Below are positions 5,374 to 63,820 of a DNA stretch of 64,000 nucleotides, in pieces. Made by a program: the position numbers and the translations under genes. The notes under the pieces were generated by a model. The model saw nothing but the letters and a program-made list of their open reading frames with translations. It did not search any database and had not been told where the DNA came from. Numbering within the stretch: the stretch's first letter is position 1; every line of letters starts with the position of its first letter. Origin of the DNA: Bacilli bacterium (GTDB taxonomy: Bacteria; Bacillota_I; Bacilli_A; RF39; UBA660); NCBI GenBank assembly GCA_017528315.1, contig JAFXOW010000010.1:1-64000 (forward strand). Direction: 5' to 3'.

Positions 5374-6608
5374 TTAAAGTGGATAATTTAATTAGAGAAG
5401 TGGATGAACAAATAAGGTTAGATAATCGATTTAAATATATTGATGAAATAGAAGATTTTTATAGTAATAAAATAATAAAAGCTTTTAAAGAAGAAGAGTT
5501 ATCTGAAAGTGATTTGCATGGTACAACAGGATATGGTTATAACGATTATGGACGCGATAAAATAGATAGAATTTTTGCGAAAGTTCTTGATAGTGAAGCA
5601 GCACTTGTTCGTAGTCAATTTATTTCGGGTACTCATGCTTTAACAGTAACTTTATTTGGTTTATTAAGACCTAATGACACATTATTATCAATTACTGGAA
5701 AGCCATATGATACACTTGATGAGGTAATTGGAATTATTGATAATCCTAGTTCTTTAAAATCATTTGGAATTAATTTTGATTATATTGATTTAAAGAATGA
5801 TGAATTTGATTTAAATAGTATTGAAAAATATCTAAAAGAAAATAGGGTTAAGGTTATAGAAATTCAAAGAAGTAGAGGATACTCAGATAGAAAATCTATT
5901 TCAATAGAAGAAATAGATCGGGTTGTTAAATTTATTAGGAATATTGATAAAGAAGTTATAATTATGGTTGATAATTGTTACTGTGAAATGACTAGTATTC
6001 TTAATCCTACATCAGTTGGATGTGATATAATGGTGGGTTCTTTAATAAAGAATTTAGGTGGAGGAATTGCACCTAATGGTGCTTATGTTGCTGGAAAAAA
6101 AGAATTAGTGGATTTGGTTTCGGAAAGATTAACGGTTCCAGGACAAGGTGCTGAGGTTGGACCAAGTCTGGATATGAATAAACAAATATTAATGGGTCTT
6201 TTCTTCGCGCCAAGTGTCGTTGCAAGTAGTTTAAAAACAAATATTTTTGCTAGCTTGCTATTAGAGAAGTTAGGATTTACTACTAATCCAAGTTATAAAA
6301 ATAATCGAAGTGATATTGTTTTAGGAATTACTTTTAATAATTCAGATAAGTTAATTAAATTTGTTGAAGGTATCCAAGAATATAGTGCTATTGATAATTA
6401 TATTAAACCAGTGCCATCAGAAATGCCAGGATACTCAGATAAAATTATTATGGCAAGTGGTAGTTTTACAGAGGGAAGTAGTATTGAAATATCTTGTGAT
6501 GCTCCAATTCGTCCTCCATATATTGCTTATCTTCAAGGAGGACTTACTTATAAATATGGACGTTTGGCGGTTATAAATGCATGTTGGAAGGTATTAAATG
6601 AAGAATGA
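5370..6608 (+). CDS. PLP-dependent methionine gamma-lyase-like protein (YnbB family)
   Basis: This belongs to the fold-type I PLP family often labelled aluminium resistance protein or methionine gamma-lyase-like (YnbB in Bacillus). Support: the N-terminal DLHGTTGYGYNDYGRD block (48-63), D201 in MVDNCYCE, and the probable Schiff-base K227 in GSLIKNLGGG. Length (412) is normal. Its true substrate is not established for the family. It starts with GTG at 5370 overlapping the SDR stop and ends 11 bases inside the next gene. In Bacillus the homologue sits near glnR; that context is absent here. Confidence 0.85.
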   Translation: MIKVDNLIREVDEQIRLDNRFKYIDEIEDFYSNKIIKAFKEEELSESDLHGTTGYGYNDYGRDKIDRIFAKVLDSEAALVRSQFISGTHALTVTLFGLLRPNDTLLSITGKPYDTLDEVIGIIDNPSSLKSFGINFDYIDLKNDEFDLNSIEKYLKENRVKVIEIQRSRGYSDRKSISIEEIDRVVKFIRNIDKEVIIMVDNCYCEMTSILNPTSVGCDIMVGSLIKNLGGGIAPNGAYVAGKKELVDLVSERLTVPGQGAEVGPSLDMNKQILMGLFFAPSVVASSLKTNIFASLLLEKLGFTTNPSYKNNRSDIVLGITFNNSDKLIKFVEGIQEYSAIDNYIKPVPSEMPGYSDKIIMASGSFTEGSSIEISCDAPIRPPYIAYLQGGLTYKYGRLAVINACWKVLNEE

Positions 6609-7254
6609 TAAATTACAAATTATTTATGAAGATAAGTATTTAATTATAGTTAATAAACCAGACCATATGCTTACTATTTCCAATGATAAAGAACGAGAAA
6701 ATACTTTATATCATAAAGTGTATCTATATTTAAAAAGAAAAAATAAAAATAATAAAATATTTATAATCCATAGACTTGATTATGATACATCAGGACTTGT
6801 AGTATTTGCAAAAGATATTAAAACTAAAACATTATTACAAGAAAAATGGAATGAGGTTACTCGTAAATACTTGGCTATTGTAAATGGAAAAGTAGAAAAA
6901 AATACAGGAACTATTAAATCATATTTAAAAGAGACAAAAACATTATTAGTATATTCTAGTAAAGATAAAGATGGGCAGCTTGCTATAACCAATTATCGAA
7001 AAGTATTCGAATATAATAATTTAAGTTTATTAGAAATTAATTTAAAAACGGGAAGAAAAAATCAAATAAGAGTCCATATGAGTGATTTAGGTAATCTGAT
7101 TCTTGGTGATAAGAAGTATGGATTTAAAACAAAAGAAACGAGAATGTATTTGCATGCCTACTATTTAAAGTTTAATCATCCAATTACAAATGAATTGGTA
7201 GAATTTGAATTAGATATTCCTAAAAGTTTTTTAATTAAATTAGGTAAAATGTAA
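6598..7254 (+). CDS. RluA-family RNA pseudouridine synthase
   Basis: It isomerises uridine to pseudouridine in rRNA or tRNA. The catalytic motif HRLDYDTSG contains the essential Asp, near residue 60, and GRKNQIRVHM is the conserved C-terminal motif. At 218 residues it is a short RluA-type protein without an N-terminal S4 domain, so the target site cannot be named. It overlaps the PLP-enzyme gene by 11 bases and closes the operon that begins at 4666. Confidence 0.9.
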   Translation: MKNDKLQIIYEDKYLIIVNKPDHMLTISNDKERENTLYHKVYLYLKRKNKNNKIFIIHRLDYDTSGLVVFAKDIKTKTLLQEKWNEVTRKYLAIVNGKVEKNTGTIKSYLKETKTLLVYSSKDKDGQLAITNYRKVFEYNNLSLLEINLKTGRKNQIRVHMSDLGNLILGDKKYGFKTKETRMYLHAYYLKFNHPITNELVEFELDIPKSFLIKLGKM

Positions 7255-53327: not shown

Positions 53328-54230
53328 ATGGAAAAACTAGTTTTAAAAAATAAAGATACTAATTTGTTAAAAGTTAATTTTAAAAAAAAATTAGATGATC
53401 CTATTTTTAATGAACTAGTTAGTACTATTGATCTTCCAAGTGATTGTTTAATGAAATATACTTCTAAACTTATTGAAGCAAGTATTGAATATTATAATTG
53501 TAAGAATTGTAAATCGTATTTAGGATGTAAAAATTATATGAAAGGTTATTCATATACACCGATTGTTATAAATAATTCTTTAACTTTTTCTTATGTCGAA
53601 TGTGCTAAAAAACATGAAATGGACGAGAAAAACAAATATTTAAATAATGTTTATTACTTTGAGATACCTGCTAGTTTAAAAGGAGCAAGTCTAAAAAATA
53701 TTTATAAAGATGATGCCAAAAGAATTGATGCCATAAAAAAAATAAAATTATTTTATGATAGTTATAAAAAACATGAATATTCAAAAGGAATTTATTTATC
53801 TGGCTCATTCGGTTCAGGTAAATCTTATTTGATAGCAGCTTTATTTAATGAATTAGCTAAAATGGGTGTCCGAAGTGCTATTATTTATTTTCCAGAATTT
53901 TTAAGAAAACTAAAAGCTAGTTTTGGGGTTGATTATAACGAATTATTTGATAGTATAAAAAAAGTTCCACTTTTATCAATAGATGATATAGGTGCTGAAA
54001 AATTAACTGATTGGGCAAGAGATGAGATACTAGGAAGTATTTTGCAATATAGAATGGATAATAAATTACCAACATGCTTTACATCTAATTTGAATTTAAA
54101 AGAATTAGAAAATCATTTGCAAATAACCAATTCATCAAGTGATAAAGTAAAAGCTAGAAGAATAATGGAAAGAATTAACTTTTTAACAGATGAAGTAACT
54201 TTAATAGGAGTTAACAGAAGGAGTGAATAA
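53328..54230 (+). CDS. dnaI: primosomal protein DnaI (helicase loader)
   Basis: AAA+ ATPase that loads the replicative helicase in Bacillota. A Zn-binding N-terminus (CKNCKSYLGCKNY, about 60-75) precedes Walker A GSFGSGKS, Walker B LLSIDDIG, and the TSN sensor. 300 residues, normal. No dnaB is next to it, unlike Bacillus. The following RNB gene begins two bases after the stop. Confidence 0.93.
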   Translation: MEKLVLKNKDTNLLKVNFKKKLDDPIFNELVSTIDLPSDCLMKYTSKLIEASIEYYNCKNCKSYLGCKNYMKGYSYTPIVINNSLTFSYVECAKKHEMDEKNKYLNNVYYFEIPASLKGASLKNIYKDDAKRIDAIKKIKLFYDSYKKHEYSKGIYLSGSFGSGKSYLIAALFNELAKMGVRSAIIYFPEFLRKLKASFGVDYNELFDSIKKVPLLSIDDIGAEKLTDWARDEILGSILQYRMDNKLPTCFTSNLNLKELENHLQITNSSSDKVKARRIMERINFLTDEVTLIGVNRRSE

Positions 54231-54231
54231 C

Positions 54232-55596
54232 ATGAATCAGAATATAAAAAGATTTAAAAGTATTGTTGAAGATACCAAAAATATAAATGCTTGCATAAAA
54301 GCTTTAAATCTCGAATTTGATTCATGTTTTTTGTGTTTTATGCTTATTTTAGAAGATGCAATTTTAGAATATAAAGAACATATTGATTATCAATATATAA
54401 CTAAAGTTTCTAATTATTTGGAAAGAGTTTATCAAAAATTAAATATAAAGAAACAAAAAGAATATAGTGATCTTGTTTATAAAATAAAAAAAATATATAA
54501 AAGACAAATTCAAAATATTAATATAGATAATAAAGGTTATTTTGAACAAGTTATTAGGGATTTAAATGATTTAATAAATAATTATATTGTAAATAAAAAT
54601 GATATCTTAATTAGTGAAGATTTGCAAAGAGAAAAATATATGGAAGAATATATTATTACTATAGATGATGCAGATGCTAAAGTATTAGATGATGGTTTAT
54701 CAGTGGGAATACTTCCTAATAATAATTTATTATTAAAAGTTCATATTGCTGATCCTTTAGTTTTATATCCTTATGAATCAGATATAATGAAAAATGCTAA
54801 GTTACAAGTTGAAACTATCTATGATGAAGATAATCCGGTACCAATGATTCCTAACGAAATATCATATCAAAAATTATCTTTAATTCAGGATAGGAAACGT
54901 TATTCAAAAACTTTTTGTTATGAATTTGATAGACAAGGTAATATTGTTAATTTTTATATTCAAAACAGTATCATTAAGGTAAGTGAAAGACATACTTATG
55001 ATAGTATGAATGAATTATATAAAAATGGAGGAAATAATATTTTAGAAGAAACTAGGTTATCTTATTATGATGAAATAGTTAAATATTTAAGAATAATGTT
55101 TAAGAATGTTCGTGATTATGAAGAAATAAAAATAAAAAATTTAGTTTTAAATGATGATAAAATTAGTAGTTTTTCTGAAAGACTTGTTTCTTATTCTATG
55201 GTATTAACTGGTTATATGACTGCAAAGTATATGAAAGAACATGATTTACCGTATGCTTATAGATGTAATAAATTAGCAGTTATAGATGATAGAATAAAAA
55301 TGGGATTAACGGAAGAAGAAATTATTAAATTAGAAACTATTCTTTCTAAATCTTTCTATACAAGAAATAATGTAGGTCATGAAAAATTAAAAGTAGATAC
55401 CTATTCTCATGTATCAAGTCCATTAAGAAGATTTATTGATAATTTAAATATGCATTGTTTAAATATATGTTATTTTAATACTCCAACTGATAAGCAAATA
55501 TATAAACTAAATGATGAGATAGATTCAACTTGTGATTATATTAATAATCAAGCAATATCAGTTGATGAACAAATAATTAAAAAATTAGTTAAATAG
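54232..55596 (+). CDS. compact RNB-domain (RNase II/R-like) protein
   Basis: 454 residues from ATG 54232 (AAGGAG at 54218-54223). A helical N-terminal part (1-130) is followed by an RNB catalytic core: IITIDDADAKVLDDG near 141-155, VHIADP, and SHVSSPLRRFIDNLNMHCL. The cold-shock and S1 domains of RNase R are absent. The catalytic Asp set D0-x5-D6-x-D8-D9 reads D145, V151, D153, D154, so the second Asp is Val. This may be a dead or altered nuclease. It is cotranscribed with dnaI. Confidence 0.8.
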   Translation: MNQNIKRFKSIVEDTKNINACIKALNLEFDSCFLCFMLILEDAILEYKEHIDYQYITKVSNYLERVYQKLNIKKQKEYSDLVYKIKKIYKRQIQNINIDNKGYFEQVIRDLNDLINNYIVNKNDILISEDLQREKYMEEYIITIDDADAKVLDDGLSVGILPNNNLLLKVHIADPLVLYPYESDIMKNAKLQVETIYDEDNPVPMIPNEISYQKLSLIQDRKRYSKTFCYEFDRQGNIVNFYIQNSIIKVSERHTYDSMNELYKNGGNNILEETRLSYYDEIVKYLRIMFKNVRDYEEIKIKNLVLNDDKISSFSERLVSYSMVLTGYMTAKYMKEHDLPYAYRCNKLAVIDDRIKMGLTEEEIIKLETILSKSFYTRNNVGHEKLKVDTYSHVSSPLRRFIDNLNMHCLNICYFNTPTDKQIYKLNDEIDSTCDYINNQAISVDEQIIKKLVK

Positions 55597-55674: not shown

Positions 55675-57279
55675 ATGAATAGAAATAAGAAGTCTAACAA
55701 TTTTTTATTACCTGTTTTAGCCATTATTTTAGTAATATTTTTTTGGAGTAGAGTAACAGGTATTTTTAATGAAAACGGTGTATTTACTAAAAATACTTTT
55801 CATATTTTAGCATCTACTAGTACTAGAAGTTTGGAAAGCGATTTAAAAAAATTTGCTAAGAAGAATAAAATAGATTTAGAAGTTGATTATTATGGAGACT
55901 TAGAAATAGTTAATATTTTAAATGATAATAGTGGTGAGTATGATGCAGTTTGGTTATCTAATTCTTTATGGCTTTATATGTTAGATAATTCAAATCTTAC
56001 TAGTGATAGTAAATCTATTGTTATGAATCCAGTTGTTCTTGGTATTAAGAAGAGTAAGGCAGAAAGTTTAGGACTAGTTGGAAAAGATGTTTATAATAAA
56101 GATATTTTAGAAACAGTTAAAAGTGGTAATCTTAAATATGTCATGGCTAGTGTTACGAAAACTAATACTGGAGCAACCACTTATTTGAACTTTTTAAATA
56201 GTTTAGCTGGAAATCCTGAAGTCTTAACTGAAGAGATGCTTGATAGTGATACTTTAAGAAATGATTTAAAAAGTTTATTTCAAGGAGTAGAGAGAGTATC
56301 AGGAGATGAAGATTATTTAAAAGAAATGTATTTAAATGGAGAATATGATGCAATTATTAGCTATGAAAGTAGTTTAATTAGTTTAAATGAAGAGTTAGTA
56401 AAAAATAAGAAAGAGGCTTTGTATTTAATTTATCCAGTAGATGGAGTTGCTATTAATGATATGCCATTTGCCTATATAAATAATGATTTAAAAGATACAG
56501 AGAACAAAAATAAGTTTTTAAAATTACAAGAATATTTAAGAAGTGATAAAGTAGTAGAAAAAATGGAAAAATTAGGATATCGTTCTTGGTATGGAGGAAT
56601 AAAAACGAATGTTGATAAAAATATCTTTAATCCGGATTGGGGAATTGATACTAGTAAATATTTAAAAGATATGAAATATCCTAGTAAAAAAGTAATTACT
56701 AAAGCTATTAATATATATATTGAAGAGTTAAGAAAACCAACTCATGTCGTATTTTGTTTAGATGTATCTGGTAGTATGTATGGATCGGGAATTTCTGAAT
56801 TAAAAGATGCAATGAATTATATTTTAAATTATGAAACAGCAAGTCGTGATAATTTACAATTTTCCAAAGATGATAAGATAACGGTTATAACTTTTAATAG
56901 TAAAATAGCCAAAACCTTTGATACTAAATTTGGTAGTGAAACAAATGAAGTAATTGCGGAAATAAATTATTTAGAAGCAATAGGTGGAACTAATATATAT
57001 GATCCAAGTATTAAAGCCTTAGAAATATTAAAAGGTGAATCAGACGATTATACTAAAACAGTTATTTTAATGACAGATGGTATGTCTAATTCCGGATATT
57101 TTAGTGATTTAAAGAAGTATTATGATAGTAATAAATTAAATATTCCGATTTATTCTATTACTTTTGGAAGTAGTGATGAAAAAGAATTAAATAGAATTGC
57201 TACATTAACAAATGCTAAGGTATTTGATGGTAAGAGTGGATTAAAAAAAGCATTCACAGAAGTAAGGAGTTATAACTAA
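55675..57279 (+). CDS. membrane-anchored solute-binding-like/vWA fusion
   Basis: 534 residues. A helix near 11-30 anchors the protein with the rest outside. Residues 42-310 form a periplasmic-binding-like domain (FHILASTSTRSLESDLKKFA, YDAVWLSNSLWLYMLD). Residues 355-534 are a von Willebrand A domain with an intact MIDAS: D363-x-S365-x-S367, T439 and D468. vWA domains bind protein ligands through metal. A solute-binding fold joined to vWA is rare. It starts the operon and overlaps the XpaC-like gene by one base. Confidence 0.82.
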   Translation: MNRNKKSNNFLLPVLAIILVIFFWSRVTGIFNENGVFTKNTFHILASTSTRSLESDLKKFAKKNKIDLEVDYYGDLEIVNILNDNSGEYDAVWLSNSLWLYMLDNSNLTSDSKSIVMNPVVLGIKKSKAESLGLVGKDVYNKDILETVKSGNLKYVMASVTKTNTGATTYLNFLNSLAGNPEVLTEEMLDSDTLRNDLKSLFQGVERVSGDEDYLKEMYLNGEYDAIISYESSLISLNEELVKNKKEALYLIYPVDGVAINDMPFAYINNDLKDTENKNKFLKLQEYLRSDKVVEKMEKLGYRSWYGGIKTNVDKNIFNPDWGIDTSKYLKDMKYPSKKVITKAINIYIEELRKPTHVVFCLDVSGSMYGSGISELKDAMNYILNYETASRDNLQFSKDDKITVITFNSKIAKTFDTKFGSETNEVIAEINYLEAIGGTNIYDPSIKALEILKGESDDYTKTVILMTDGMSNSGYFSDLKKYYDSNKLNIPIYSITFGSSDEKELNRIATLTNAKVFDGKSGLKKAFTEVRSYN

Positions 57280-57905
57280 TGAAAAATAAAGATATTGTTT
57301 CAGCAGTAGTGGGTGGAATGTTTTTTGCCGTTCCATATCTGGGAATAGGAGTGGCGCTTGCTCCCTCTTTAGTAATTGGAGGGCTCGCTTTTTCTGCAGG
57401 AGAACTCGTGATGAGTGGAATAAAACCTAAACTTACTTTAAAAAATACTAATATTAGTTTATATAAAAAGTTAGAACTTGCTAAAAAGCAAAATAAAGAA
57501 ATTAGCTTATTAATACCTAAAGTTGAAAGTGAATATACTAAAACTAATTTAAAAGAGATTGTAGCATCGGTTGATAAAATAATTAAAGTTGTGGAGAAAG
57601 AACCTAAGAAAGAAAAAAGATTAAATAATTTTTTTGATTATTATTTGCCAGTTTTAATTAAAATTGTTTCAAAATATGATGAAATAGAAAATCAAAGATT
57701 GGTGTCAAATGAAGGGAAAAATTTTTTAAAGAAAGCTGATAAGATGATTGAAGAAATTAATAAATCATTTCAGATGATATTATCATCTCTTTATCAAAAA
57801 GATATTATGGATGTGGAAGCTGATTTAAAAGTATATGATATGATGTTAAAAGCTGATGGAATAGTTGAAGATTCTTTAATGAAAGGAAGTGATGGTGATG
57901 AGTAA
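57279..57905 (+). CDS. XpaC-like protein
   Basis: 208 residues. Two hydrophobic segments (about 5-39) anchor it, followed by long helices in the XpaC pattern: KKLELAKKQNKEISLLIPKVES, NNFFDYYLPVLIKIVSKYDEI and KDIMDVEADLKVYDMML. XpaC is annotated after 5-bromo-4-chloroindolyl phosphate hydrolysis but its real function is unknown; it often sits next to TelA. It overlaps the vWA gene and the next gene. Confidence 0.75.
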   Translation: MKNKDIVSAVVGGMFFAVPYLGIGVALAPSLVIGGLAFSAGELVMSGIKPKLTLKNTNISLYKKLELAKKQNKEISLLIPKVESEYTKTNLKEIVASVDKIIKVVEKEPKKEKRLNNFFDYYLPVLIKIVSKYDEIENQRLVSNEGKNFLKKADKMIEEINKSFQMILSSLYQKDIMDVEADLKVYDMMLKADGIVEDSLMKGSDGDE

Positions 57906-59088
57906 AAAAACTATAATTGGAATATTAATTTTTATTGGACTTATTTTAGCTATTATTGGAATTAAGAAGGTTATGGATAATGATGGCTCAGAATTATTTG
58001 GAAGTCTAACAACGGTATATGTTGCAACCGGTGGAGGTAAAGAAGATTTTCTAGCTGATAAAGATATTTTAAAAATATTAAAAAAGAAATATCATTTAAA
58101 TGTAGTATATGATACTTGGAGTAATGGTAAAACTATAACTAAACCATTGATAAGAGAAAGTGTTGGACTTGGAAATCAAAGTATAATTAATAAAATTAAT
58201 AATGGAGAAACATTTGAAGTAACAAGTGATGGTGTATCAAAATATGATGCTTTATTTACATCAGACCAAAGATTTTATGATTATTATAAATTGCAACCTA
58301 ATAAAGAATTAGGTGAATCATCAAGATATACTGTTTTAAATGGAGGATTAACTTTAAATACTCCAATAGTTATTTATAGTTGGAAGGAAGTTGTTGATGT
58401 TTTAATTAATGAACAAATTGTAACTGAAAAAGATTCTGTTTATTATATAACAGATATGAATAAGTTGATGAATTATATTTTAGAAGGCAAGAAATGGAGT
58501 GATATAGGACTTGGTAGTTTATATGGAACTATTAATATAGCATCAACTGATCCCGTTACCTCATCACCTGGTGCTACTTACTATGGTTTACTTTTATCAA
58601 TTTTAAGTGGAGGACAAGTAACAACTGATAATATAGAAACTAATTTACCAAAATTAAAAGAATTTTATATTAAATCAGGATATATGAATAATACTCCAGC
58701 TGATCTTTTTGAAAGATATTTAAAAACTGGATTAGGAGGAGAACCAATGATAGTTGACTATGAAAAAAGTATGATTGACTTTGCTAACTCTTCACCTGAT
58801 GCGTTTAATCAAGTAAAAGATAAGATTAGAATACTTTATCCATCTCCTACCATTTGGAATTCTCATTGCTTTGCATCATTTACCGAAAATGGTAATAAAT
58901 TATATGAAGCTTTTAATGATAAAGAAATAGGTCAAATAGCTTGGGAAAGATATGGATTTAGAACTGGTCTTACCGGAGGAAACTATGATGTATCAAAAAT
59001 TGGTTTAGGTATTCCTGAGTCCATTACTAGTACTGTTACGAGTTTAAAAATGGATACTTATAATGAATTAATAAATTATTTGAAATAA
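57898..59088 (+). CDS. second membrane-anchored solute-binding-like protein
   Basis: 396 residues. An N-terminal helix (about 5-24) anchors an extracytoplasmic domain with the fold cues of a solute-binding protein: TVYVATGGGKEDF, YDALFTSDQRFYDYY, and SSPGATYYGLLLSILSGG, as in other PBP2-type chains. No vWA domain is attached. No ABC permease is nearby, so it may be a sensor rather than an importer. ATG 57898 is chosen; 57892 is possible. It overlaps the XpaC-like gene. Confidence 0.75.
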   Translation: MSKKTIIGILIFIGLILAIIGIKKVMDNDGSELFGSLTTVYVATGGGKEDFLADKDILKILKKKYHLNVVYDTWSNGKTITKPLIRESVGLGNQSIINKINNGETFEVTSDGVSKYDALFTSDQRFYDYYKLQPNKELGESSRYTVLNGGLTLNTPIVIYSWKEVVDVLINEQIVTEKDSVYYITDMNKLMNYILEGKKWSDIGLGSLYGTINIASTDPVTSSPGATYYGLLLSILSGGQVTTDNIETNLPKLKEFYIKSGYMNNTPADLFERYLKTGLGGEPMIVDYEKSMIDFANSSPDAFNQVKDKIRILYPSPTIWNSHCFASFTENGNKLYEAFNDKEIGQIAWERYGFRTGLTGGNYDVSKIGLGIPESITSTVTSLKMDTYNELINYLK

Positions 59089-59107
59089 TAGTTAATAGGG
59101 AGGTTTT

Positions 59108-59698
59108 ATGGGAAAAATTAATTCAGAAATTATAATATCATCTTTATTAGCAATTGGATTTGATCAAGTAGATTCGTTACTATTTACCTATACATTAGAA
59201 AAAATGACTACTGCAAATACTCAATTAAAACTATTTGAGTTTAAAGATGAAAAGACAAGTCAGATTTTTAATAAATATATAGAATATGATGGTAGTAAGT
59301 TTAAATTTAGAGAGGGATATGATTTAAATACAATTGTTTTATATCGAAATATAGAACTACCATTATATAAAGTATTAAATATTAATGGTATATTAAATAA
59401 TGTATTAATAGAATATTTGAAAACACTTGATTTTAAAGAAATAATTATTAAAAAAATTATGGCTTTAGGAACTGATAGAATAGATGATTATGAAGAATTA
59501 TTCTGTGATAAGGAAAAAGAAATAATCTATGAGATGTTTAAAATAGGAAAAATGCAAGAAAAAAAATCAAAAATTCAATTGCAAATTTATAAAAATATGG
59601 CAAGGCAAGAGGAAGAAGATAATGAAAGATTACTTAATTATTTAAATAATAGGATTAATAAAAATAAAGTAAAAGTAAAGGAGAAAAAATATGAATAA
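59108..59698 (+). CDS. helical protein of unknown family
   Basis: 196 residues with no recognisable domain. No signal or membrane helix is visible, so it is probably cytoplasmic. The N-terminal half mixes short strands and helices; the C-terminal 50 residues are a charged coiled-coil-like helix. GGGAGG precedes the ATG at 59108. It overlaps telA by eight bases, so it is likely produced with TelA and may be its partner. Confidence 0.6.
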   Translation: MGKINSEIIISSLLAIGFDQVDSLLFTYTLEKMTTANTQLKLFEFKDEKTSQIFNKYIEYDGSKFKFREGYDLNTIVLYRNIELPLYKVLNINGILNNVLIEYLKTLDFKEIIIKKIMALGTDRIDDYEELFCDKEKEIIYEMFKIGKMQEKKSKIQLQIYKNMARQEEEDNERLLNYLNNRINKNKVKVKEKKYE

Positions 59699-60842
59699 TT
59701 TAGAATTAAAAGTTGAAAAGAATGTAGAAGAAAGTGTAGAAAAAGAAATAGTTGAGACTGGAAAATTAACGGATGAAAAAATTGAAAAGACGCTTAATTA
59801 TGATTTATTAACGGAGTCTGAGAAAAAGGCAATTGATGAGTTTAACGAGAAAATTGATATTAATGACTCAACTCAGATTATTCAATATGGAGTTGCTGCT
59901 CAAGAAAAAATATCCAAATTTTCAGATAGTGTTTTAGAAGATGTTAAAACTAAAAATACCGGAGAAGTTGGGGATTTACTTGCTGATTTGGTTAGTCAAA
60001 TAAAATCATTTGATGCAGATCTATCAGGTACTAACAAAAAAAGTATATTTGGTAAATTATTTACAAATGCTAAGAAAGAATTTGACTTTTTAGTAGCAAA
60101 GTATTCTAAAATAGAAAAAAATATCGATACTATAGAGCATGGACTTGAAAAAGATAAATTACAAATGTTAAAAGATATCAATATCTTTGATACTATGTAT
60201 GAAAAGAATTTAGAATACTTTAAAGAAATATCTTTATATATTATAGCAGGGGAAAGAAAGTTAAAAGAACTTCGTGAAGTAACTCTTCCTGATTTAAAAA
60301 AGAAAGCCGAAAAGAGTGGAGATCAATTAGATATTCAAAAAGTAAATGATTTAGAAAATATGATAAATCGTTTTGAAAAGAAAATCTATGATTTAAAAAC
60401 AACGAGAATTATTTCTATTCAAATGGCTCCTCAGATTAGACTTTTACAAAATAATGAAGCTGAACTTGTAGAAAAAATTCAAAGTTCTATTACTAATACA
60501 ATTCCTTTATGGAAAAATCAAATGGTATTATCACTTGGAATTAATAATGCCAAACGTGCTCTTAAAAATGAACAAGCAGTGTCAAAACTTACTAATGATA
60601 TGTTAGTAAAAAACAGTGAGACTTTAAAACAAGGATCAATTGAAATTGCCGAAGAAAGTGAGAAGGCTATCGTTAATGTAGAAACACTTCAAAAGACTAA
60701 TCAAGATTTAATTGAAACCTTAGATAAAGTAATTGAAATTCATAAAAATGGTAGAATTAAGAGAATGGAAGCTGAAAAGACTTTAGAAAATATAGAAAAA
60801 GAATTAAAAGAAAAAATTCTTGAAATACATGTAGAGAAATAG
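59691..60842 (+). CDS. telA: TelA, toxic anion resistance protein
   Basis: 383 residues. Typical TelA helical protein: KQLDIQKVNDLENMINRFEKKIYDLKTTRIISIQMAPQIRLLQ region, then NTIPLWKNQMVLSLGINNAKRAL, and a coiled-coil end. TelA is linked to tellurite and other toxic-anion resistance, though its mechanism is unknown. It lies between an unknown helical protein and a CbxX ATPase. AAAGGAG at 59677-59683 fixes the start. Confidence 0.9.
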   Translation: MNNLELKVEKNVEESVEKEIVETGKLTDEKIEKTLNYDLLTESEKKAIDEFNEKIDINDSTQIIQYGVAAQEKISKFSDSVLEDVKTKNTGEVGDLLADLVSQIKSFDADLSGTNKKSIFGKLFTNAKKEFDFLVAKYSKIEKNIDTIEHGLEKDKLQMLKDINIFDTMYEKNLEYFKEISLYIIAGERKLKELREVTLPDLKKKAEKSGDQLDIQKVNDLENMINRFEKKIYDLKTTRIISIQMAPQIRLLQNNEAELVEKIQSSITNTIPLWKNQMVLSLGINNAKRALKNEQAVSKLTNDMLVKNSETLKQGSIEIAEESEKAIVNVETLQKTNQDLIETLDKVIEIHKNGRIKRMEAEKTLENIEKELKEKILEIHVEK

Positions 60843-60843
60843 T

Positions 60844-62430
60844 ATGAATAGAGATTATTTTAAAGGTATATATGAGGATTTTTTTAAAGTAGAAGATACT
60901 AAAGAATTAAATCAAATTACAAAAAATAATAATCAAGAAACTGAACAAGTTGAAATGACTGAAATAATTACTAAAATAAATAATTTATATATTGATTTAG
61001 AAAGTAAAAATTTACTTAAAAATATAATTGAGTATATGAGAAAATGGAATGATGGTTTAGAAAAAAACTATATTCCTTTTCGATTACTTATTAATTCAAA
61101 AGGAAAACTTAAAGAAGAGATAGAAGATATATTATATAATGGAGCTCTTACTTATAATTATTTAGATAATAAAGATAAACAGGAAATATCATTTTTTAAG
61201 TATGATAAATCTTATAATTATCAAGATAGTTTTATAGTTTTAAAAGATTTAGTAGGATTAAAATTAGAAGATATTAAGGAAGAACAAAGATTTTTCTATC
61301 TATTAGAAAATTTCTTAAAAGAAAATCAACATAAAATGGTTATAATTTCAGGTACTATTGATGAAATAAATAATTTCTTTTTAGGATATGAAAATATAAA
61401 AAATAATTATTTTGATTTTGTTATTAATGGTATTAGTCTTAGTATAGCAGATGTTTATGAGAAAGTACTTCTAGAACTTAATATAAATGAAACACTTAAA
61501 GGTGAAGTTTTAACTTATATTGAAAATACTTATAAAGAAAATATAGACTATGATAATTATATTGATGATTTAGTAAAATATATATCATTTAATAAAAAAG
61601 TTCCTGAAATAAAGAGTAGTAAAACTATTGATGAAATATTTAAAGAATTGAATGAATTAGTAGGACTTTCTGATATTAAAAAAGTATTGTATGAAATGGT
61701 TGATGTTATTAAATTAAAAGAGAAAACTAAAGGTACTCTTAATATTAAAGATATGAATTTACATATGGTATTTTTGGGAAATCCAGGAACTGGTAAAACA
61801 ACCATTGCTAGATTAATTTCTGGTATTTTATATGAACTTGGTATTATAAAAGAAAATAAATTAATTGAAGTTGGTGTTAAAGACTTAGTAGCTGAATATG
61901 TAGGACAAACAGCACCTAAAACTAGTTTAGTAATTGAAAAGAGTTTAAATGGAGTTTTATTTATAGATGAAGCCTATGCTTTAGCAAGTAAAAATGGTAA
62001 TTCTTATAATGATGAAGCAATTGCAACTTTAATTCAAGCTATGGAAAATTATCGAGATAAACTAGTAGTAATATTTGCTGGATACACCAAAGAAATGAAA
62101 GATTTTTTAGATTCAAACTCTGGGATAGTATCTCGAATTGGTTATACCTTAGAATTTCCTGATTATACAACAGATGAACTTATAGAAATATTTTTAGGAA
62201 TGACTAAAAAAGCTGGGTTTGAAGTGGAAGCTGATGCTATAGAATATCTAAGAGAAATAATAGTGGAGAACCGTGATATGAAAAATTTTGGTAATGCAAG
62301 ATTTATAAGAAATATTTATGAAAAAACAATTATTAAACATGCAAGTCGAGTTAAAGATAAAAAACAAAGTAAAATATTAAGAACTTTAACTAAAAATGAC
62401 ATAAGTATTGAAAATTTAAATTTAAAATAG
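60844..62430 (+). CDS. AAA+ ATPase, CbxX/CfxQ (SpoVK-like) type, tandem
   Basis: 528 residues. Residues 270-528 are a CbxX/CfxQ AAA+ domain: LVGLSDIKKVL, Walker A GNPGTGKTT near 311-319, Walker B VLFIDEAYAL near 371, and FAGYTKEMKDFLDSN with the sensor arginine RI. Residues 40-230 look like a second, degenerate AAA domain: LLINSKGKLKEEI where Walker A should be and MVIISGTIDEINNF where the sensor strand would be. CbxX-type ATPases remodel protein complexes. It starts one base after telA. Confidence 0.85.
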   Translation: MNRDYFKGIYEDFFKVEDTKELNQITKNNNQETEQVEMTEIITKINNLYIDLESKNLLKNIIEYMRKWNDGLEKNYIPFRLLINSKGKLKEEIEDILYNGALTYNYLDNKDKQEISFFKYDKSYNYQDSFIVLKDLVGLKLEDIKEEQRFFYLLENFLKENQHKMVIISGTIDEINNFFLGYENIKNNYFDFVINGISLSIADVYEKVLLELNINETLKGEVLTYIENTYKENIDYDNYIDDLVKYISFNKKVPEIKSSKTIDEIFKELNELVGLSDIKKVLYEMVDVIKLKEKTKGTLNIKDMNLHMVFLGNPGTGKTTIARLISGILYELGIIKENKLIEVGVKDLVAEYVGQTAPKTSLVIEKSLNGVLFIDEAYALASKNGNSYNDEAIATLIQAMENYRDKLVVIFAGYTKEMKDFLDSNSGIVSRIGYTLEFPDYTTDELIEIFLGMTKKAGFEVEADAIEYLREIIVENRDMKNFGNARFIRNIYEKTIIKHASRVKDKKQSKILRTLTKNDISIENLNLK

Positions 62431-62440
62431 AGGAGTTATT

Positions 62441-63820
62441 ATGGAATTAAATAAATACATGTTTAGAGAATATGATATAAGAGGGGTATGGGGATGTGAT
62501 ATTAATGAAGAAGTATCTTATTTAATAGGAAAAGCATTTGGTACTAAATTAAAAAGACTTGGTAAAATAGAAACTTTAGTTGGTTATGATAATAGACATT
62601 CATCTCCTATAATTGAAGAAAATGTTGTTAGGGGAATAAGGGACGCTGGTATTAATGTTACACGTCTTGGTTTAGTTACTACTCCAATGTATTATTATGG
62701 ATGGGATTTTTTAAATATTAAATCAGGTATGATGATTACTGCCAGTCATAATCCCAAAGATGATAATGGATTTAAATTTTCTTATAATGGTATTCATAAT
62801 GCTTATGGAGAATCTTCTTTAGAACTTTATGAAATGATTAAAAATAATGATTTTGATGAAGTTGAAAGTATTGGTAGTATTCGAGATGTTAATATTCGAG
62901 GTCAATATATCAAAATGATTACTGAAGGTATTAAGTTAGGAGATCATAAAATAAAAGTTGTTTATGATTGTGGTAATGGAACAACGGCAATTGTTGCTGA
63001 TGAAATATTTAATACCTTTAAAGATAAACTTGAATTAGTACCACTTTTTAATGATTCCGATGGAGATTTTCCTAATCATCATCCTGATCCTGCTGTTGAA
63101 GAGAATTTAACTAGGTTAAAAGAAACTGTTCAAGAAACAAATGCTGATATTGGAATTGCCTTTGATGGTGATGGTGATAGAGTAGGTGTTATAACTAATA
63201 ATTCTAAATTTTTAGATATTGATAAGTATATGATTTTAATTTGGCGTGATTTAATCCACAAAAATGTGGATAAAAAAACTTTCTATGATGTTAAATGTTC
63301 TCTTGCTTTAAAAGAAGAACTTGATAAATTAGGTGTTCAAAATGAATACTTTAGAACAGGTAATTCTTATACAAAAGCTAAAAGTTATGAAGGAAATTTC
63401 CCATTTGCAGGTGAACTTTCTGGTCATGTATTTTTCCGTGATAGATTTGGTGGATATGATGATGGTATATATGCTGGACTTAGACTTGTAGAAATTCTTA
63501 CCAATACAGAAAAAAATATCGAAGAATTACTTCAAGGAATTCCAGAATATATAAGTACACCTGAAATAAAAATTGCAACAGAGGATAATATTAAATTTAA
63601 AGTAATTGATAAAGTTAGAGAATATGCTGAAGATAAACATTATAACATTTTAACAGTTGATGGTGTAAAAGTATTATATTCCGATGCATCAGCTTTAGTT
63701 AGAGCATCTAATACAGGACCTAATATTACAACGAGATTTGAAGCTAAAAACGAAGAAAAATTACAAGAAATTAAGAATGAATTTTTAAATTTAATAGATG
63801 ATATAAAAAGTAATTTATAA
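62441..63820 (+). CDS. phosphomannomutase/phosphoglucomutase
   Basis: 459 residues. Moves phosphate between C6 and C1 of mannose or glucose. The phospho-Ser loop is TASHNPKD, metal site FDGDGDRVG, sugar site GELSGHVFF and phosphate site RASNTGPNITTRFEA. The first metal-binding region YDNRHSSP is present. The enzyme is of the ManB/AlgC type. It follows the AAA+ gene by ten bases and could be part of the same transcript, linking the operon to surface sugar metabolism, or just a neighbour. Confidence 0.93.
   Translation: MELNKYMFREYDIRGVWGCDINEEVSYLIGKAFGTKLKRLGKIETLVGYDNRHSSPIIEENVVRGIRDAGINVTRLGLVTTPMYYYGWDFLNIKSGMMITASHNPKDDNGFKFSYNGIHNAYGESSLELYEMIKNNDFDEVESIGSIRDVNIRGQYIKMITEGIKLGDHKIKVVYDCGNGTTAIVADEIFNTFKDKLELVPLFNDSDGDFPNHHPDPAVEENLTRLKETVQETNADIGIAFDGDGDRVGVITNNSKFLDIDKYMILIWRDLIHKNVDKKTFYDVKCSLALKEELDKLGVQNEYFRTGNSYTKAKSYEGNFPFAGELSGHVFFRDRFGGYDDGIYAGLRLVEILTNTEKNIEELLQGIPEYISTPEIKIATEDNIKFKVIDKVREYAEDKHYNILTVDGVKVLYSDASALVRASNTGPNITTRFEAKNEEKLQEIKNEFLNLIDDIKSNL

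Follow-up and report, generated by a model that had tools for sequence, protein, structure and literature searches.

Five of the seven genes at positions 55675–63820 of a 64,000-nucleotide stretch of DNA from a Bacilli bacterium (contig JAFXOW010000010.1, positions 1 to 64,000; hereafter "the window") form a conserved module. In order, these genes encode a solute-binding protein fused to a vWA domain (SBP-vWA), XpaC, a second solute-binding protein (SBP2), TelA and an AAA+ ATPase of the CbbX/EccA type. An initial annotation, made from the sequence alone, had proposed that solute-binding proteins (SBPs) and a vWA domain were joined here to XpaC, TelA and AAA+ in a membrane-spanning system. As a genetic unit this system is strongly supported by the near-perfect gene order, the co-divergence of the five genes, the retention of an unlinked SBP-vWA and the recurrence of the set in other phyla.

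The seven open reading frames were all co-directional on the + strand and, as described in that annotation, tightly packed, none of the overlaps or gaps between them exceeding 19 nucleotides (nt). Their placement behind one promoter was not sustained, since promoter-like matches were found at the level of chance in a promoter scan (90 found, 84 expected). The host of the window is a 1.36-Mb draft genome (contig C80, 93% complete) with a single copy of TelA. This genome encodes five transpeptidase-domain proteins and the host is therefore probably a walled cell; for the same reason, a cell-wall-less host was ruled out as the cause of the odd ectodomains.

Conservation and distribution of the module

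Related loci were gathered with an SBP2 profile, which gave 157 relatives in GTDB genomes, of which the best 80 were fetched. A total of 82 loci, mostly from metagenome-assembled genomes of gut or rumen Bacilli and Clostridia, was examined, and occupancy was counted only over those with enough flank. As the loci were picked by their similarity to SBP2, the conservation of this protein may be inflated, which does not apply to the presence of its partners. The order SBP-vWA, XpaC, SBP2, TelA and AAA+ was nearly invariant across the 82 loci, so that the neighbourhood expected by the initial annotation was indeed conserved. Adjacency to SBP2 was observed for XpaC (81/81), TelA (75/76), SBP-vWA (75/77) and AAA+ (57/65), and the median gaps within the module were short (1, -8, 9, and 18 nt). 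In the two loci where SBP-vWA was unlinked, a full-length copy was found on another contig of the same genome, and the gene is thus kept even when it has moved away. Upstream of XpaC, where SBP-vWA has moved away, a zinc-ribbon protein with a single transmembrane (TM) segment and an extracellular domain was observed (L064 and L065, 8058–9221); its likeness to TcaA/YvbJ-type proteins was judged by eye only.

The pairwise between-locus distances of the five module proteins were correlated (r 0.62–0.78, with a permuted maximum of 0.25), shared genome ancestry accounting for part of this correlation. The median identity to the window protein was 75% for SBP2, 74% for TelA, 53% for AAA+, 52% for XpaC and 49% for SBP-vWA. 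Such a strong constraint on the extracellular SBP2 speaks for an unchanging ligand or unchanging partners and not for a fast-changing target.

Beyond Bacillota, annotated plasmid and chromid records were searched with SBP2, and matches were obtained in Sphaerotilus, Variovorax (three), Nonomuraea and Deinococcus. These six records, and no others, were also recovered when the SBP-vWA of Variovorax, named "substrate-binding and VWA domain-containing protein" in RefSeq, served as the query. SBP2, TelA, SBP-vWA and a protein of 206–226 amino acids (aa) were found in succession in Sphaerotilus, Variovorax and Nonomuraea. The last of these proteins has an N-terminal TM hairpin; its size, its topology and its conserved YLP motif are like those of XpaC. 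Moreover, the SBP-vWA of other phyla carries a putative lipoprotein signal (Gly/Ala-Cys lipobox), which would place this protein independently outside the membrane. Two regions only a few kb away from the module in one Variovorax record (L098, NZ_LR594667.1; 4293–6035 and 16046–18609) contain a flotillin gene and genes of the anti-plasmid system Wadjet (Jet).

Within the family of the window, the module is an accessory block, present or absent as a whole, at a defined site. Where members of the genus lack the module, three successive genes with the lengths of spoVACDE come after dnaI-rnb, either directly (L137, L139, and L142) or behind other genes (L138 and L140). The order in one relative that carries it, G008, is dnaI-[module, 255-aa protein, pgm]-spoVACDE; the spoVACDE genes were named by length and order, with a Pfam check on G008 only. 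TelA was detected in this family only in genomes with the module: 19 genomes were tested, the four with TelA all carry the module, and in the 14 that lack the module TelA is missing too. The last of the 19, G290, is 97% complete and also has no TelA. In its locus (L105) an SPFH/Band-7 protein (PF13421, E 1.5e-28; 6267–7229, - strand) occupies the position of TelA after vWA-XpaC-SBP2, and is a possible functional replacement of TelA. No convincing flanking repeats marking a mobile element were seen, and no phage or viral copies of the module were found.

The RNB gene at the upstream flank encodes a protein about 150 aa shorter than its genus relatives, which has lost a variable internal region and retained the catalytic domain. 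A cut by the insertion of the module was rejected as the explanation, since the shorter length corresponds to an internal gap and not to an end cut. In G008 and in a second relative with the module, G011, the RNB gene is absent from the insertion site.

The encoded proteins and their neighbours

The product of the first gene matched SBP_bac_11 (E 9e-11) and VWA (E 2e-15) in Pfam, in agreement with the fusion initially annotated. The residues of its metal ion-dependent adhesion site (MIDAS), D363, S365, S367, T439 and D468, are intact exactly as had been listed, and were invariant in 75/75 relatives; the DxSxS...T...D metal site is also present in four proteins from three other phyla. The C-terminal tail is conserved as well (VFDGK...VRxYN). 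In the predicted structure, the SBP half (predicted local distance difference test, pLDDT, 85) matched hexose-phosphate-, iron- and molybdate-binding proteins, and the C-terminal half matched vWA domains, including those of adhesins and receptors.

Structure prediction makes SBP2, which has no Pfam match, a binding protein of type II (mean pLDDT 81); its twelve conserved motif residues are intact in 78/78 relatives. Its Foldseek matches were ModA, a sulfate-binding protein and FutA, with moderate TM-scores (0.3–0.5) that support the fold class and not a close relative. SBP2 and the SBP half of SBP-vWA are homologous to each other as paralogues (hhalign 99.1%, E 4.5e-19), and the structure models give the two ectodomains the same fold class, that of type II solute-binding proteins. 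The second SBP-like ectodomain of the initial annotation was thereby borne out, and both regions are predicted to fold as had been supposed. No solved relatives of SBP2 or TelA were detected by sequence search.

The two identities given at first to XpaC and TelA also held. XpaC matched PF10112 (E 6e-21, 75.8 bits, cut-off 29.8), and TelA matched its family with E 3e-117 (392 bits, cut-off 30). The AAA+ protein contains the Pfam domains AAA and AAA_lid_6 and is closest to CbbX (E 3e-75) and EccA1 (E 2e-59); its best NCBIfam match, SpoVK, was below the cut-off, as were all three equivalog models. Walker A, Walker B and R431 were intact in 59/59 relatives, apart from one E-to-D change. The protein had been described as a tandem AAA+. 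One canonical module (residues 308–522) was confirmed, and the second was not: the N-terminal half aligned to the canonical module in register and weakly (hhalign score 23.1, probability 2.9; best of 30 shuffles 18.1), which weakly suggests a degenerate AAA module there. TM anchors were predicted in 84/85 SBP2 and 78/79 SBP-vWA proteins and also in XpaC, and none in TelA or AAA+, a likely topology with the two binding proteins outside and TelA and AAA+ inside.

The other two genes of the cluster (Table 1), both counted initially as parts of the system, were rejected as module members. The helical protein encoded at 59108 was found only in the genome of the window, being absent from 57 other genomes and from all other module loci. 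The slot between SBP2 and telA that it occupies contains no gene in most relatives, and in a few it is filled by unrelated proteins (610, 195, 305+93, and 522 aa); this cargo-like slot was seen occupied in L010 (5238–7070), L012 (830–1417), L023 (11163–12339), L084 (11050–12618) and the window (59108–59698). The phosphomutase lies downstream of the module only in the window, G008 and G011, three genomes of one subclade of the genus, and genus-wide it is present in exactly these three genomes, which are those with the module. G008 and G011 are also the nearest relatives of the window by the neighbouring dnaI (75 and 74% identity, at most 70% for others), so that the coincidence may reflect one shared inheritance. 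In these two nearest relatives, a TM-anchored protein of about 255 aa, not present in the window, lies between AAA+ and pgm (L010, 1715–2479; L014, 13915–14682). Just downstream of the phosphomutase and beyond the window, a gene for a sigma-70-type factor (regions 2, 3, and 4) was observed at 64222–64869 of contig C80.

Table 1. Genes of the cluster and its upstream flank, in coordinates of the window.
Feature	Position	Strand	Description
SBP-vWA	55675..57279	+	TM anchor aa 11-28; type II solute-binding domain ~40-305 (predicted); vWA; C-terminal tail
XpaC (PF10112, 'Halogen_Hydrol')	57279..57905	+	N-terminal hydrophobic hairpin and helical domain, presumed cytosolic
SBP2	57889..59088	+	TM-anchored type II solute-binding protein (predicted); without Pfam family
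196-aa helical protein	59108..59698	+	8-nt overlap with telA; not core
TelA (PF05816)	59691..60842	+	No TM segment
CbbX/SpoVK/EccA-type AAA+	60844..62430	+	Walker A K318, Walker B D375/E376, R431 and lid; first 250 aa without assigned domain
PgmG-like phosphohexomutase, four-domain	62441..63820	+	Not core
RNB-domain protein	54223..55596	+	Upstream host flank of insertion site (dnaI-rnb-[module]); outside module

Proposed function and rival explanations

Of the explanations considered, a trans-membrane envelope-stress sensor or scaffold is favoured here, tentatively, as the most likely. The XpaC-TelA pair alone belongs to the core sigma-W regulon in B. subtilis (PMC3498285) and to the CesSR regulon in L. 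lactis (PMC3139573), and a Listeria TelA mutant is nisin-sensitive (cited in PMC12791056). Additionally, YdjI, an SPFH protein of B. subtilis, is a membrane-stress scaffold and anchors PspA, a stress protein, at the membrane (PMC8581546). The membership of the pair in envelope-stress regulons, the nisin sensitivity of the mutant and the SPFH protein in the position of TelA join the conserved gene unit, its likely topology, the folds and the intact MIDAS and ATPase motifs as grounds for this reading, in which the physical contacts, the direction of the signal, the ligand and the physiological role are inferred. In such a system, the two paralogous SBPs would be tethered at the outer face of the membrane, one of them bearing a metal-dependent vWA docking domain. 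The binding of a ligand may alter the contact between SBP2 and SBP-vWA, or with another surface partner, through the MIDAS. The hairpin of XpaC would relay the signal across the membrane to its own cytosolic helical domain and to TelA, which may act as a membrane-associated scaffold protecting or reorganising the membrane. The CbbX/EccA-type AAA+, where present, could remodel or recycle the inner complex. The system may thus sense a ligand or the state of the envelope, as the initial annotation had suggested. That it represents an undescribed signalling class, in which paired SBPs (one with a MIDAS-vWA) would act through XpaC on a TelA scaffold and an AAA+ remodeller without a permease, histidine kinase or anti-sigma factor, is a more doubtful proposition.

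Several observations weigh against an envelope-stress sensor with this set of parts. AAA+ is missing from 8/65 testable loci, some Clostridia among these, and the Deinococcus set has no adjacent TelA, so that neither protein is strictly required. The profile comparison of XpaC with the 206–226-aa hairpin protein was not significant (E 0.043), and the replacement of TelA by an SPFH protein is a single case. Furthermore, a substrate that is transported or acted on by an enzyme could explain the conservation of SBP2 just as well. A role of this kind, in which the SBPs scavenge a nutrient or ion for an unlinked ABC permease and XpaC, TelA and AAA+ are loosely associated, would account for two ectodomains of the type II class whose folds are nearest to binders of anions, iron or sugar phosphates. 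It is nonetheless unlikely, given that no recognised permease recurs next to the module in about 80 loci or, as initially annotated, lies in the cluster of the window, that a vWA domain is fused to one of the SBPs and that in other phyla the partner retained beside the SBPs is TelA and not a transporter. The absence of AAA+ from those eight loci counts against a type VII-related secretion or surface-assembly machine, in which an EccA/CbbX-type AAA+ would drive export and SBP-vWA would be the surface product or adhesin. The matches of AAA+ to EccA1 and CbbX and the resemblance of the vWA domain to those of adhesins and receptors fit this alternative; no type VII secretion gene was recognised among the recurrent flanking genes, and we regard it as improbable.

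TelA homologues of IncP plasmids have been linked to phage inhibition and colicin resistance, and a system of defence or competition against phage, plasmids or bacteriocins could be built on TelA. The patchy, block-wise presence of the module at an otherwise empty site, the variable cargo slot between SBP2 and telA and the Wadjet genes near the module in Variovorax would suit such a role. However, PADLOC gave no match to a catalogued defence system, the matches being mainly generic AAA-type and marginal; the module has no phage or viral copies; and SBP2, the outer protein, is its most conserved part, unlike what a target-driven arms race would produce. Defence is therefore considered unlikely. 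A function in sporulation or germination, suggested by the SpoVK-like best match of AAA+ and by the location of the module between dnaI and spoVACDE in G008, is very improbable: the genes downstream of the site are unchanged in members of the genus that lack the module, the recurrent neighbours at other loci included no recognised spo genes and the module occurs in non-sporing Pseudomonadota and Deinococcus.

Comparison with known systems

The names of TelA and XpaC go back to a tellurite phenotype and a dye reaction, and to our knowledge no mechanism has been established for them in the decades since. Their stable association with two binding proteins outside the cell, kept in four phyla or more, would give them an input from outside and a testable complex, and a ligand of SBP2 would make directly answerable the question of what TelA systems respond to. 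No description of this gene combination was found in the open literature, a prior mention in the main Ter review (Anantharaman et al., 2012) being possible.

As in the Ter systems (TerC/TerD/TerB, vWA proteins, and TelA), TelA and a vWA protein are found here together in an accessory cluster of stress type. In the module, by contrast, the vWA domain is extracellular and fused to an SBP. No TerD (PF02342) match was obtained in the draft genome of the window (93% complete) and no TerC or TerB partners were present among the proteins of the operon; by the TerD test, the module is not a Ter system. Nor is it an ABC importer by the permease test, as the solute-binding fold is present and a linked permease and ABC ATPase are absent from the cluster of the window and from the recurrent neighbours. 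Like the PspA-YdjGHI complex of B. subtilis, the module would have a cytosolic scaffold for membrane stress to which small membrane proteins give a docking place, and in one relative, L105, an SPFH protein stands in the place of TelA; unlike that complex, the module has extracellular binding proteins and no PspA/ESCRT-III component.

The module AAA+ shares Walker A/B, the conserved arginine and AAA_lid_6 with the CbbX/EccA/SpoVK family, but has its own N-terminal region of 250 aa and scores below the cut-offs of the three equivalog models. As in the MoxR-vWA pairs (RavA-ViaA, BatA/B), an AAA+ and a MIDAS-vWA protein occur in one operon, although here the AAA+ is of the CbbX type and the membrane separates it from the vWA domain, so that direct contact between the two is not expected. 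There is also a likeness to xpaC-yaaN, lmo1966-67 and llmg_1115-1116, pairs from envelope-stress regulons of Bacillota, where XpaC and TelA are adjacent in the same relative order and form a presumed pair of membrane and cytosolic proteins; the excerpts of the sources on these pairs mention no SBP2, SBP-vWA or AAA+. The module extends this known XpaC-TelA pair, which is interleaved here with two extracellular binding proteins.

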